From: Bacteroidia bacterium
GTDB taxonomy: Bacteria > Bacteroidota > Bacteroidia > UKL13-3
NCBI GenBank assembly: GCA_020049855.1
Contig: JAGVLJ010000001.1
Location: 124,001-188,000 of the forward strand
Reading direction: 5' to 3'
Length of the DNA: 64,000 bases
This document shows, piece after piece, positions 47,914 to 60,756 of this stretch. The position numbers were made by a program, and so were the translations under genes. Each line of letters opens with the position of its first letter. Positions within the stretch are counted from its first letter, which is position 1. The notes beneath the pieces were generated by a model. The model did no database searches. It saw only the letters and a program-made list of their open reading frames with translations, and had not been told where the DNA came from.

Positions 47914-48549
47914 TTAAAAATTTGTGAGCAGCTTCAATGGAGAGTCGAAAATGTTTTTGCTTTTTGCCCCTTTTGCAAGAGAACCAATGGTAAAACGGAA
48001 TTTAGGTTTAATTGAATTTGTCACTGCAACCCATTCCTGTGGTTTTATGCTGTCGGTAAAATCAACAACCTGTAAAGCCGGTTTAGCTTTTCGTACTTCT
48101 GCCACAAGTGGCTTTTTCTGGGTATTCGTAATTTGAACAACCGAATCGGTGGATACCACCATCACCGGTGTGGTGTTATCGGCCACTGGTGCTATAAATT
48201 GTTTTTTACTTACTGCTTTAGGTTTTGGCCGATGGTTTTTCTTCTTTTCAACCAGAGTTTTGGTGTACAGTTTTTCCGTATGCGTAACAGCAGGTTTGCC
48301 GGTGGTTTTCTGAGTTTGCTGCGCCATATTTCGGGGCTGCTCGGGACGTAAATTCAGCCAAAAAATTCCGGCTATGATAAGTATCGCTGCTGCACTGCTC
48401 CAATACCATAATGGCCTTTTGTTTTGTTTGCCCTCAAGTGAAGCTTCAATCAGTTCCCACTTGCCGGCAAGCGAAGTTTGGTAGCCTGCGGGCAGACTGT
48501 CTAATGTATTTATTTTGTCCTGTATAATTTTATTCTCCAAGCTTTCCAT
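47914..48549 (-). CDS. Single-pass membrane protein, probable anti-sigma factor (module A)
   Basis: I place the start at ATG 48549 (211 residues); ATGs at 48573 and 48564 are also possible and would deepen the overlap with the sigma gene. The N-terminal ~48 residues are acidic and cytoplasmic (MESLENKIIQDKINTLDSLP), followed by one membrane helix (about 49-66; AAAILIIAGIFWL). The rest is a Lys/Gln/Thr-rich periplasmic tail with no recognised domain (KKNHRPKPKAVSKKQ). It overlaps the ECF sigma gene by 20 bases. Overlap, topology and position are those of an anti-sigma factor. I see no zinc-binding motif, so it is not a ZAS-type anti-sigma. Confidence 0.65.
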   Translation of the reverse strand: MESLENKIIQDKINTLDSLPAGYQTSLAGKWELIEASLEGKQNKRPLWYWSSAAAILIIAGIFWLNLRPEQPRNMAQQTQKTTGKPAVTHTEKLYTKTLVEKKKNHRPKPKAVSKKQFIAPVADNTTPVMVVSTDSVVQITNTQKKPLVAEVRKAKPALQVVDFTDSIKPQEWVAVTNSIKPKFRFTIGSLAKGAKSKNIFDSPLKLLTNF

Positions 48550-49090
48550 AACTCCTCCATCCATGTTGTTCAACCATTTTTTTCAGTCGTGCTTTTGCTT
48601 TTTGGTACTGTGTTTTGCTGGTGCTTTCGGTTATACCCAGCATTTCGGCAATCTCTTTATGTGCGTACCCCTCCACTACAAAAAGATTCAGAACGGTTCG
48701 GTAACCTGTTGGCAGTTGGGTAATCAGTTCAACCAACTCTTCGGCATGCAATTGCTGCAGTATATCGCTCTGATCAGGAATCTCCGCAATGGTTTCTTCC
48801 GTCATCAGGTAAAAACTGTTTTTTTTACGCAACTCCATTAAAGTCTCATTCACCACCATTTTTTTAATCCACATAAACAAGCTGTATTCACCGGTAAATT
48901 TAAATTCGGGCAACCGCTTAAACATTCGCATCAGAGCACGCATCGTGCAATCTTCTGCTTCGGCATGCCGCGGAATATACCGCTGGCTTATTCTAAACAT
49001 AGAAGCATACAGCGTTTCAAAAAGCTCTCGCTGAGCTTTGCGGTCGCCATTCTTACATAGTTTCACAAATTCTGCTGTAAAATACTTCAT
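48530..49090 (-). CDS. ECF-type RNA polymerase sigma factor (module A)
   Basis: The start ATG 49090 gives 186 residues; a TTG nine bases earlier is less likely. Region 2 spans about 20-90 (AQRELFETLYASMFRISQRY and MRMFKRLPEFKFTGEYSLFM). Region 4 spans about 125-175, with the helix-turn-helix HKEIAEMLGITESTSKTQYQKAKARL. It directs RNA polymerase to envelope-stress or specific uptake genes. It is the first gene of a three-gene cluster with a membrane protein and an envelope protein. The gap to CapA (49185) is 94 bases. Confidence 0.93.
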   Translation of the reverse strand: MKYFTAEFVKLCKNGDRKAQRELFETLYASMFRISQRYIPRHAEAEDCTMRALMRMFKRLPEFKFTGEYSLFMWIKKMVVNETLMELRKKNSFYLMTEETIAEIPDQSDILQQLHAEELVELITQLPTGYRTVLNLFVVEGYAHKEIAEMLGITESTSKTQYQKAKARLKKMVEQHGWRSYGKLGE

Positions 49091-49184
49091 GTGTTTCAAC
49101 TGCTAAAAATGCAGCGGATGTGTGAAAAGTTGCCCAAGGTAAAAAGAAAATGGAAAAATAATTCTAATTCGTTGAAAGACAGGA

Positions 49185-51933: not shown

Positions 51934-52106
51934 CGGCAGTGTAATTTTAGCAGTAAAAGTTTAGCCCAATACGCCCGGAGCTTAAAAAGCGCTGTAAATT
52001 GTTTATTTGATTTATAGCACCTTATAAAAAAGGCGTTAAAATTTGCCTATTCAAATACAACGTCTGCACTTATCCTGCGGTCTTTCTCAGTAATTAAGCT
52101 CCCTCA

Positions 52107-52667
52107 TTGAGTACAAGCGGCCAAACTTTAAGTGATGAAGAGTTGATTGTTCTTTGCCGAAACAATCAGGTTTTTGCACAAAACGAACTTTACAAACGTT
52201 TTGCCAGAAGGGTAATGGGTATTGCTATGCGTTACAGCCGCAACCGCGAGGATGCTCAGGACATTGTCCAGGATAGTTTTGTGAAAATTTTTCTGGGGCT
52301 TAAAAATTTTAAAGGAGATGGCTCTTTTGAAGGTTGGATAAAACGCATTGCCGTAAACACAGCCATTAACCATATTCAAAAGCAACTGAAATTTACCAAC
52401 GAATCGGCTATTGAGGCCGCATCGGATCTGATATACGATAACCAGATTATTAAAAACATATCGGCCAATGAACTCATCGGTTTGGTGCAGGCCATGCCTG
52501 ATGGATTTCGTACCGTATTTAACTTGTTTGTAATTGAGGGTTACCAGCATCAGGAAATAGGTGAAATGCTGGGCATTTCAGAAGGAACATCCAAATCGCA
52601 ACTGGCTCGGGCCCGACAACACTTGGCCAATAAAATTAAATCGAAAAAGTTAGACTATAATGAATAG
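52107..52667 (+). CDS. ECF-type RNA polymerase sigma factor (module B)
   Basis: This 186-residue protein has region 2 at about 20-90 (YSRNREDAQDIVQDSFVKIF and GDGSFEGWIKRIAVNTAINH) and region 4 at about 125-180, with the helix-turn-helix HQEIGEMLGISEGTSKSQLARARQHL. It directs transcription of a dedicated gene set; no target can be read. The start is TTG 52107, because an in-frame stop lies at 52095 and no ATG lies before the first conserved helix. It overlaps the following gene by eight bases. Confidence 0.93.
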   Translation: MSTSGQTLSDEELIVLCRNNQVFAQNELYKRFARRVMGIAMRYSRNREDAQDIVQDSFVKIFLGLKNFKGDGSFEGWIKRIAVNTAINHIQKQLKFTNESAIEAASDLIYDNQIIKNISANELIGLVQAMPDGFRTVFNLFVIEGYQHQEIGEMLGISEGTSKSQLARARQHLANKIKSKKLDYNE

Positions 52668-54237
52668 TAATATGCAAAATCAGTTTGATGAACTCCTTCA
52701 TCAGAAGTTGTATGACTTCTGTGAAGATCCTGATGAAGGGCTGATTGATAGAATACATCAGAAAAAAGACCGGATTATCCGCCTATACCGATTAATTCCA
52801 CTTATTCTTTCGGTGGTGGCCATTACTCTGGCCGGCATGTGGTTTTTTTCTTCTGAAAATAACCGGAAAAGTTTAATGCCCGCTGTTGAAAGCAAACCAG
52901 CTTCTGTGTCAGAAATGCCTGTTTCTGCCTCAAAACCTGTTACCCTTTCAGGTAGCGGCTTTTTGGCTGTTGGCAATTCTACCGTATCTGTTTCCTCTTC
53001 ACAAACAATAGCCAATGCTACCACTAAAAGTCAGGTTCGTTTAACGGAAGAAGCACCACTTAAAGCCCCCTTGAGAGGTGTCAGCCCTACTTCTGTTTAT
53101 TCCTCGGAAATTATAGGTTGTGAAGCGGGTTTTGATTTTTACACTTCTTATACCGGAGAGCTGTTTTTTATTAACACCAGTAGCATAAATGATGGTACAG
53201 AATTTTTGTGGAATTTTGGTGACGGCACTTACAGCAATCTGACAAATCCATCGCATCAATATCAAAAAGCTGGGGAATATGAGGTAAGGCTTGACGTGAT
53301 ATTGAATGGAAAACCTACTTGTCATTATGCAGCAGTTCTAACGTATTCTGCCGCAACAATACAAGTTGAAAAAGCAATTAAGGGAACTGTGTTTGAGGAA
53401 GTGTTTATTTCAAAAGATGCCGTTGTTTCTTTATACAAACAAACAGCATTGGGCGATAAATACGAATTATATTCCCTTCACAAAACCGATGCATCGGGCA
53501 ACTACCTGTTCACCGGGCTGCCTAACGGGAAGTATCTTCTACTTGCCGAAAATAGCGGCAATCCGAGATTTATGCCAACTTGGTTTGGAAATGTTACTTT
53601 GAGTGAAGATGCCGACCGAATTGTGATTGATGACCGCAACCAACAAAGCAACCGAGCATTCGATATTCATTTGCAACAGGCGCGTCTATCTGCCACGCTT
53701 GATATGACGACCTCTTTAACCAACAACGCTGATACAGGGGGGGCTTATGTAAAATTAATTGATGGTTATAACAATTTAGTGGGCACGTTTAAAACTGACA
53801 AGTATGGACGCCTGATAAACGGCCAACCTAAAATTCCACCTGGATATTATAAAGTGATTGATCCGGCAACCTCAAACGAAACAACCATTGAAATTGGAGC
53901 AGGAAATTCAGGAACTATTGACAATTATACTGATTTAGTTAGTGACAGATCGCGTGAAATGTCAAAACCATTTGTGGCGACCGAGCCTTTGGTGGTTATG
54001 CCAAACCCTGCTGTGAGCGATATTCGGTTTGAAATAAAACTCGAAACCCACGAACAGGTGCTGGTGCGTATTGTTAATACCAATGGAATAGAAGTTTATA
54101 GCGAAACTACCAGAGGTGAACCTGGGTATAACAAATTCAATATTATGATTGGCTCATTTAAACCGGGAGTGTACTATGTAATGGTGAAAAAAGGCCAAGG
54201 TGTTCCTGTAATCAGTCAGCTTATAAAAGCGAACTAA
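52660..54237 (+). CDS. Membrane-anchored PKD protein with T9SS sorting domain, cognate of ECF module B
   Basis: This 525-residue protein combines parts that are rarely joined. Residues 1-44 are a charged cytoplasmic segment (FDELLHQKLYDFCEDPDEGL) like that of an anti-sigma factor. Residues 45-63 are one membrane helix (LIPLILSVVAITLAGMWFF), followed by a Ser/Val/Thr-rich linker (64-145). A PKD domain (about 150-232) has FLWNFGDGTYSNLTNPSHQY. A SdrD B-like or carboxypeptidase-regulatory-like domain follows (about 236-345; KTDASGNYLFTGLPNGKYLLLA). Residues about 445-525 form a T9SS type A sorting domain (VVMPNPAVSDIRFEI ... MIGSFKPGVYYVMVKKG). The start ATG 52660 lies within the sigma gene. If the helix stays in the inner membrane, the sorting domain sits in the periplasm and may act as a sensor. 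If the helix is a signal that is cleaved, the protein is exported. Confidence 0.85.
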   Translation: MNSNMQNQFDELLHQKLYDFCEDPDEGLIDRIHQKKDRIIRLYRLIPLILSVVAITLAGMWFFSSENNRKSLMPAVESKPASVSEMPVSASKPVTLSGSGFLAVGNSTVSVSSSQTIANATTKSQVRLTEEAPLKAPLRGVSPTSVYSSEIIGCEAGFDFYTSYTGELFFINTSSINDGTEFLWNFGDGTYSNLTNPSHQYQKAGEYEVRLDVILNGKPTCHYAAVLTYSAATIQVEKAIKGTVFEEVFISKDAVVSLYKQTALGDKYELYSLHKTDASGNYLFTGLPNGKYLLLAENSGNPRFMPTWFGNVTLSEDADRIVIDDRNQQSNRAFDIHLQQARLSATLDMTTSLTNNADTGGAYVKLIDGYNNLVGTFKTDKYGRLINGQPKIPPGYYKVIDPATSNETTIEIGAGNSGTIDNYTDLVSDRSREMSKPFVATEPLVVMPNPAVSDIRFEIKLETHEQVLVRIVNTNGIEVYSETTRGEPGYNKFNIMIGSFKPGVYYVMVKKGQGVPVISQLIKAN

Positions 54238-59119: not shown

Positions 59120-60733
59120 TTACTTTTTCACAATTCTGAAATTAACAGGAAGCGAATTAAGTTCTATCTGCACCAAATAAAATCCAGGCAGCAGTCCGTC
59201 AAGTGAAACGATTTGAAGTGCTTCATTGATTAAGGTGGTACTTTTCAGTTTTTTCCCACTTATATCGAATACTGTAAATGCCCCTACGTCAAGACTTGGG
59301 TCGGTGAGTTCAATTGACAGGTAATCGGTAACAATGGTAGGATACACTAGTACTCGTTTTTTTAGTTCATCGGGGGTTGGGGCTATACCGGTGTAGGTTT
59401 TCAGCAGCGAGTCGGCACGACAGGCATCGGGTACACCATATCCGTAAAAATTATCAGGGTTGTTTAAATGGTTTCCGCTTACTGTGATAGCACGTATAAT
59501 TTCCCAACTGCTGCGTTGTGGGTTGGCCTGTTTAAGGCATGCGGCCAGCCCGGCAATAAGGGGCGATGAAAATGAAGTGCCACTGGCAAAAGTAATATAT
59601 CCCGCATCACTTATAACGGCTGTGTTGGAACCCATGGCTACTACATCCGGTTTTATTTTGCCGGTTGCAGTTGGCCCAATTGACGACATGCTAAAGTATT
59701 GTTTATTGGCATCAACACCACCAACACATAAAATAGAGTCGGCATCGCATGGGGCATTAATAGTAGTTGCTTTAAACGATCCTTCGTTTCCGGCACTGTT
59801 CACCACAATTATTCCTTTGGCTGCAGCCCATCGTGCGGCATTGGTTATAATGGCTGTTTTTCCATCCATTTGTGCATCAGTATAATCACCTTGTCCGGGT
59901 TCAAAGGTGCGGTAGCTTAGAGAGGAGTTTATTATATCTACTCCCAGCGAGTCGGCCCACTCGGCTGCGGCCAGCCAGTTTAATTCTTCCTGATGCACAT
60001 CGTTGGCATTGTTTATTTCAGTAACGGCAAAAGCATAATCGGCACCCGGAGCCGCACCTATAAACGTGTTGGGCCATAAAGCACCAACAGTTGAAAAAAC
60101 CAGCGAGCCGTGGTAATGGTTGCTGAATGCATTTTTTTCTGGACTCACAAAATTACGGTTAGATATAAAGCGGTTTTGTACCCGGGCAGAGTCGTATGCT
60201 TTGATGGTATCAACACCTAAAAAGCCTATATCGAAAAAAGCGACTAATACCCCTCGTCCGGTGTATCCGTTTTGGTGCAGACACAGTAGGTTTAGCATAT
60301 TATTTTGAGTGGCTGTACTGCCAAACCCTGCGGTAGTTAACGGTACATCTGCATCGGTTCGGGTATTGGTTGATTCGCCTTGAAGCGGCTGTACCGATTG
60401 AATAAATGGAAATATTTGCAGCAATTGCGTAGCTGTTAATGCGGTAGAAACATGTACCATATTCAACCACCGCGAAGCAAAGTGTATAATCAGTCCCTGA
60501 TGCTGCATTGCCTGAAGGTAGGCCGTGTTTACAGGCAAATCGGTTTCAGAAAAAACTATGCCCCGCTGTTTGTGTTTGTTTATGGCTAAGGGAGAAAGAG
60601 CTGAAGCAGCATTTTTTTCGGATACGGCAACGGAGCCTTTATTTGTTAGAAACAAAAGGTACTGATTATTTTGGGCTTTTCCGTGCAAGGAAATAAGCAG
60701 CAGACCAAGTGTAAAAAATTTATGTGTAAACAT
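59120..60733 (-). CDS. T9SS-exported subtilisin-like serine peptidase (S8)
   Basis: The start ATG 60733 gives 537 residues and a signal peptide (MFTHKFFTLGLLLISLHGKA); an upstream TTG at 60751 lies within the promoter-like element. The S8 triad is readable: Asp in FFDIGFLG (about 168; DTG is written DIG), His in HYHGSLVFST (about 207) and Ser in GTSFSSPLIAGLA (about 381). The C-terminal ~75 residues (VLVYPTIVTDYLSIELTDP to VNFRIVKK) are a T9SS type A sorting domain, so it should reach the cell surface or medium. It degrades proteins outside the cell. Confidence 0.92.
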   Translation of the reverse strand: MFTHKFFTLGLLLISLHGKAQNNQYLLFLTNKGSVAVSEKNAASALSPLAINKHKQRGIVFSETDLPVNTAYLQAMQHQGLIIHFASRWLNMVHVSTALTATQLLQIFPFIQSVQPLQGESTNTRTDADVPLTTAGFGSTATQNNMLNLLCLHQNGYTGRGVLVAFFDIGFLGVDTIKAYDSARVQNRFISNRNFVSPEKNAFSNHYHGSLVFSTVGALWPNTFIGAAPGADYAFAVTEINNANDVHQEELNWLAAAEWADSLGVDIINSSLSYRTFEPGQGDYTDAQMDGKTAIITNAARWAAAKGIIVVNSAGNEGSFKATTINAPCDADSILCVGGVDANKQYFSMSSIGPTATGKIKPDVVAMGSNTAVISDAGYITFASGTSFSSPLIAGLAACLKQANPQRSSWEIIRAITVSGNHLNNPDNFYGYGVPDACRADSLLKTYTGIAPTPDELKKRVLVYPTIVTDYLSIELTDPSLDVGAFTVFDISGKKLKSTTLINEALQIVSLDGLLPGFYLVQIELNSLPVNFRIVKK

Positions 60734-60748
60734 ATAACTAATCAAGTC

Positions 60749-60756
60749 CAAAGTTA
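60749..60756 (-). promoter_or_regulatory. Candidate -7 element for the subtilase gene
   Basis: The minus strand reads TAACTTTG, an exact TAnnTTTG match 15 bases before ATG 60733. It implies a very short leader. Confidence 0.4.

Follow-up and report, generated by a model that had tools for sequence, protein, structure and literature searches.

A Dma-like anti-sigma architecture in Bacteroidia with a T9SS substrate domain as its proposed outer end

The window analyzed here is a 64,000-nucleotide stretch from a Bacteroidia bacterium (GCA_020049855.1, contig JAGVLJ010000001.1, positions 124,001 to 188,000). Within it, an ECF sigma factor gene (52107-52667) runs into its partner gene (52660-54237) with an overlap of exactly 8 bp, so that the first-pass annotation, which had reported a sigma gene overlapping an anti-sigma-like gene by eight bases, was exact in both coordinates and overlap. 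The locus is made up of the following features.

52055..52083, + strand: predicted autoregulatory ECF promoter (ATACAAC at 52055-52061, a 19-base gap, TCT at 52081-52083)
52107..52667, + strand: ECF sigma factor gene, 186 aa, TTG start; Sigma70_r2 and Sigma70_r4_2 above gathering scores (Pfam)
52660..54237, + strand: anti-sigma factor with T9SS type A sorting domain, whole gene, 525 aa
52660..52791, + strand: residues 1-44, cytoplasmic sigma-binding domain (barrel-type anti-sigma profile match; two predicted helices)
52792..52848, + strand: residues 45-63, inner-membrane helix (hydrophobic, K/R-rich residues just before; model helix 26-66)
52849..53109, + strand: residues 64-150, disordered tether (pLDDT mostly 23-33)
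53110..53355, + strand: residues 151-232, PKD domain (PKD_4, 2.4e-10; structural match to solved PKD domains)
53356..53649, + strand: residues 233-330, SdrD B-like domain (SdrD_B, 2.9e-7, barely over the cut-off)
53650..53979, + strand: residues 331-440, weakly defined beta domain and linker (low-confidence strands; linker 414-444 disordered)
53980..54234, + strand: residues 441-525, T9SS type A sorting domain, or CTD (Por_Secre_tail and TIGR04183 above cut-off; seven strands)

Matches above Pfam gathering scores in the partner protein are PKD_4, PKD, SdrD_B, and Por_Secre_tail. The first-pass annotation had placed a full type A T9SS sorting domain on a membrane-anchored protein, and Pfam, NCBIfam, matches to solved chains, and an AlphaFold model all confirm this identification. 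The CTD clears both cut-offs by small margins (Por_Secre_tail, 28.7 versus 27 bits in Pfam; TIGR04183, 26.5 versus 23 in NCBIfam), and a second, independent check was therefore made with a family profile against solved chains and with the modeled strands. The profile matched the solved T9SS CTD chains 8glk_D (E 2e-6) and 8qb1_A, mirolase (E 9e-4), and the model has seven strands across residues 445-523, as many as have been described in type A CTDs (PMC12618676). Neither the Pfam domain search nor the AlphaFold model gave a match to an outer-membrane beta-barrel in this protein. A whole-chain fold search with the full model returned mostly generic multidomain beta proteins that superimpose poorly by rmsd; of its matches, those to PKD domains alone are meaningful.

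At the opposite end of the protein lies the link to the sigma factor. A test profile for the sigma-binding domain, built solely from barrel-type anti-sigmas, finds 25/25 CTD-bearing proteins. Run against the window's 267 stop-to-stop frames of 60 codons or more, it hits the 525-aa protein (8e-9), a second anti-sigma-like protein (8e-8), and nothing else; its match to the 525-aa protein ranges from 3e-11 to 8e-9 by the set searched and stands at 1e-6 without the helix. That second protein (219 aa, short type without a sorting domain) forms, together with a second ECF sigma (189 aa), another pair in the window at 47914-49099 on the minus strand, and by profile it has the same sigma-binding domain. 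The anti-sigma family models of Pfam and NCBIfam have no match in the 525-aa protein, nor does RsgI_N of Pfam. Class I (ASDI) anti-sigmas have a four-helix domain, with a three-helix bundle on sigma4 and the fourth helix on sigma2 (PMC7406223); only two helices, 3-18 and 26-66, are predicted in the N-terminus here. When the sigma and anti-sigma were folded by AlphaFold as one chain, the two genes being linked by one four-letter step near the sigma end, the pTM was 0.84. Residues 1-44 reached pLDDT 92-98 in that chain versus 52-70 in the partner-alone model, a comparison between folds with different alignments in which joining forces proximity and the domain is covered by only seven other rows. 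The alignment of the joined fold consisted of joined rows; a 72-row version, in which anti-sigma fragments aligned to the sigma region, was dropped. The joined model suggests that residues 1-44 dock onto the protein's own sigma. A fold search with this model leads to sigma chains, several from anti-sigma complexes (SigW-RsiW, SigmaE-RseA), and is uninformative on the interface. The homologous sigma-binding domain, the confident docking model, and the conserved pairing described below bear out the original reading of an inner-membrane anti-sigma factor, and we regard the protein as being one with near certainty.

Helix 45-63, from its sequence context, looks like an anchor and not a signal peptide. 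Cleavage of the helix had been offered as an alternative in the first-pass annotation, and this signal-peptide reading was rejected because the N-region before the helix is 44 residues long, charged, 93% conserved, and homologous to sigma-binding domains. There are no start codons near the helix, the nearest alternative being a TTG at codon 17.

The type A form was found at eight loci in six genomes of the window's family, a single family-level clade. One of the loci is a paralogue on contig C54 of the genome from which the window comes, and another, in genome G002, is an orthologue with 71% identity. The distribution of the form is patchy, with no strong match in most of the family's other genomes. 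All eight loci share the sigma gene, the short charged N-terminus, the helix, a low-complexity stretch, and the PKD domain. A type A CTD ends 6/6 of the complete clade proteins; the other two loci are cut by a contig end or assembly break. Sigma gene, helix, PKD domain, and sorting domain are thus kept together in the clade. Homologues without the N-terminal helix and a pairing limited to this genome, either of which the first-pass annotation held would count against its reading, were looked for: every clade homologue has the helix, and the two genes stay paired far beyond the window's genome.

Two surveys extend the picture beyond the clade. In the first, which covered 80 named loci with sigma factors as the query, downstream genes of three kinds have a common N-terminus: barrel-ended (OMP_b-brl_2 in 22/56), short, and type B CTD-ended, the last at 17 loci including L039 from an earlier search (CHU_C in 17/17, TIGR04131 in 16/17). 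The second survey took 80 loci across the class, nearly all of them one top-ranked sigma per genome, and 36/80 partners carry a type B CTD (CHU_C in 36/36, TIGR04131 in 35/36), a share of 45% that is not an unbiased class frequency because both sets were ranked by similarity to CTD-linked sigmas. The remaining partners are 27 long or barrel-like proteins, long meaning at least 370 residues without a CTD, and 17 short ones; an OMP barrel match, in some cases weak, was present in 8/8 long partners tested. Since the layout recurs at eight type A loci and, in the type B form, at 17 and 36/80 loci, chance adjacency of the sigma and partner genes was rejected. In a tree built from 81 sigma rows, the type A loci group as a single clade (99/97), the type B form requires at least two changes, and the barrel form at least four. 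CTD ends therefore sit on at least about three separate parts of a tree in which the other members have a barrel or nothing, and they appear to have arisen at least about three times. Variations on the layout were also seen. At L047, L059, L132, L139, L146, and others, the sigma-binding motif stands in tandem, twice or more, before the membrane helix. At L054 (5485-8835), a barrel-ended anti-sigma gene is directly followed by one for a PKD protein that is secreted and may supply an outer domain in trans.

Conservation is unevenly spread along the partner protein. Between sister genomes, where the sigma factor is 96% identical (dN/dS 0.03), identity of the partner is 93% in residues 1-44, 89% in the helix, 52% in the tether, 60% in the PKD domain, then 78% and 68%, and 85% in the CTD, which at a dN/dS of 0.07 is among the most conserved parts. 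The same comparison for the paralogous pair gives 87, 95, 52, 72, 83, and 83%. In both, the ends are conserved and the tether drifts with almost no change in length; despite its divergence, it shows zero gaps across 87 residues between the sister genomes. The AlphaFold model has this tether disordered (about residues 65-152, pLDDT about 25), and its length would come to roughly 30 nm at full extension. Type B tethers have 125-262 aa, with a median of 162. Kept ends and a length-stable, disordered middle would suit the needs of a protein reaching from the inner to the outer membrane.

SprA, GldL, PorU, and PorP/SprF proteins are present in the window's genome (G000), PorU being split over two contig ends, and five PorV-family proteins and 103 type A CTDs score above cut-off. 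SprA occurs in 23/23 CTD genomes tested versus 52/57 non-CTD genomes, so this co-occurrence carries little weight and has no discriminating power. The window also encodes, at 59120-60751 on the minus strand, a subtilase that carries both an ordinary signal peptide and a type A T9SS sorting domain. Proteins of the PorP/SprF class act as shuttles for type B substrates (PMC12618676). One survey locus (L112, 5590-8108) has a type B anti-sigma with two PKD domains and, directly after it, a PorP/SprF gene (PF11751, 5e-58), the product of which is likely the shuttle for that anti-sigma. A sigma gene, a short anti-sigma, and then a PorP/SprF-like gene occur at L138, L164, L187, L191, and L197, one of them Pfam-confirmed; L138, L164, L187, and L197 come from genomes of family f36. 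Such loci are another recurrent link of sigma pairs to T9SS parts.

The promoter region offers a view of what the sigma factor may control. CAAC-N18/19-TCT precedes the sigma gene at 8/8 clade loci and, with N18-20 spacing, does so at 36/80 other related loci, versus about 2.4 expected from base-shuffled sequence. That the two-box motif is common to sigma promoters implies that the sigma factor autoregulates its own operon. A stricter form of the putative motif has 15 matches in the window's genome versus 9 for the reversed pattern. Thirteen strict matches fall outside the two sigma operons, and five of these lie shortly upstream of envelope or secreted protein genes; two of the five genes encode proteins with T9SS CTDs, and two of the five sites are kept in the sister genome, one of them without a single letter changed. 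Sites in such positions are more frequent than expected (binomial P 3e-4 to 6e-3 at assumed rates of 5-10%) for a small set and a motif common to both paralogous sigmas. The best candidate target is a small secreted T9SS type A protein with a motif, identical between the sister genomes (L217, G000:C83; L219, G002:C81), about 50 bases upstream. The motif is absent from the T9SS machinery promoters examined, which were those of the porP-gld cluster, sprA, the porU/porP intergenic region, and another porP.

The closest known arrangement is that of the Dma anti-sigmas, which have an anti-sigma domain, a helix, a disordered tether, and a C-terminal barrel and are encoded next to an ECF21 sigma (PMC13088901). 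Like Dma/Das (ECF21) of Bacteroides thetaiotaomicron, the window locus has an ECF sigma pair, an N-terminal sigma-binding domain, one inner-membrane helix, a long disordered tether, and an end that appears directed to the outer membrane (PMC13088901). Unlike the Dma barrel, to which it was compared by description, the C-terminal end here is a type A CTD with PKD and SdrD-like domains, and we therefore class the protein as working like Dma but not as a Dma member. The NCBIfam matches of the window sigma are at superfamily level only. As in T9SS type A and type B cargo (TIGR04183, TIGR04131), the sorting domain is C-terminal and follows PKD or other beta-sandwich domains; unlike cargo, the protein has a sigma-binding domain and membrane anchor where a cleavable signal peptide would stand, and its sigma is co-encoded. 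RsgI/SigI of Clostridia likewise involves a membrane anti-sigma with extracellular sensory domains, although in one-membrane bacteria with no T9SS, with a different sigma, and with an RsgI_N domain that is not matched here. A CTD protein is also linked to an ECF sigma in PorXY-SigP/PorA of Porphyromonas gingivalis, where PorA acts upstream of SigP; unlike in the window pair, the link is made there by a surface CTD protein of its own together with a two-component system, and neither an anti-sigma nor a fusion is involved (PMC7712824). In F. psychrophilum, an ECF/anti-sigma pair shares promoters with T9SS genes (PMC9723704), and in P. gingivalis T9SS genes are reported to be under ECF control (PMC4800418). 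PorA-SigP and the F. psychrophilum pair are earlier examples of the T9SS and sigma factors being linked by different routes. We found no anti-sigma factor fused to a T9SS sorting domain in the literature searched, the scope of which lay outside the original PNAS paper on Dma.

Our preferred explanation, held with slightly better than even confidence, is a dual-membrane-spanning, Dma-like anti-sigma in which a T9SS substrate module replaces the outer-membrane beta-barrel as the outer anchor. Residues 1-44 would tie the sigma factor to the inner membrane, with the tether spanning the periplasm and the CTD collected by the T9SS (for type A, by PorV/SprA). The PKD and SdrD-like domains would come to lie at or beyond the outer membrane with the N-terminus remaining cytoplasmic, and installation of this outer end by the T9SS seems to us modestly likely. 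A change at the outer end, whether a ligand, a pull, or loss of docking, could be passed along the tether, and we infer that stepwise proteolysis of the anti-sigma would probably free the sigma factor, which would then drive transcription of its operon and of genes for a number of envelope and secreted proteins. The expectation in the first-pass annotation that a protein held in the inner membrane should not be exportable by the T9SS is not supported: Dma already spans both membranes via a disordered tether, and the extended window tether is long enough in principle. A point against the model is that cleavage of the CTD by PorU might sever the device from its anchor.

A different sensor, which we consider unlikely, would keep the CTD in the periplasm as decoy cargo that docks on PorV, PorM, or SprA, with occupancy or jamming altering proteolysis of the anti-sigma such that the sigma reports T9SS load. 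The P. gingivalis and F. psychrophilum links cited above, including ECF control of T9SS genes, shared promoters, and the position of PorA, are all consistent with this scheme, and because 17/36 type B forms have no recognized PKD between the helix and CTD, what is sensed may be the CTD itself. Surface-type domains on the window protein would nevertheless be superfluous for a pure decoy, and the candidate targets are envelope and secreted proteins; the missing motif at the T9SS machinery promoters examined weakens a T9SS homeostasis model. Rather improbable, in our view, is a periplasmic anti-sigma that senses a periplasmic signal and whose CTD-like beta-sandwich is vestigial or structural, contact with the T9SS having been lost. 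Scores near the cut-offs would fit such a domain, as would the resemblance of type A and type B Ig-like folds to FlgD_ig. Its strong constraint argues otherwise, as do the independent recurrence of type A and type B ends on the same N-terminus, the matches to T9SS sorting models (6/6 complete type A; type B 51/53 by NCBIfam and 53/53 by Pfam), and the PorP/SprF gene that adjoins one type B form on its 3' side. That the protein is ordinary T9SS cargo with a long, cleaved signal peptide and an incidental or merely co-transcribed sigma gene is very improbable, its cargo-like C-terminal part and a weak T-L-A motif inside the helix (residues 56-58) being set against the conserved sigma-binding N-region, a helix of full membrane length with no start codon close by, and the short signal peptides of the genome's own cargo.

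A Dma-like anti-sigma with a T9SS substrate domain as its outer end is a real, conserved, and widespread architecture. We put at about even the chance that Bacteroidia have repeatedly fused an inner-membrane anti-sigma to a T9SS export signal, with the T9SS installing the outer part of a sensor that remains in the cytoplasm at its inner end. If this holds, the sorting domains on many sigma-linked anti-sigmas would be accounted for, and T9SS handling of a substrate tethered in the inner membrane would become directly testable. The T9SS would then position the outer half of envelope-spanning regulators, beyond exporting free proteins, and T9SS-bearing Bacteroidota would gain a surface-to-transcription route parallel to Dma.
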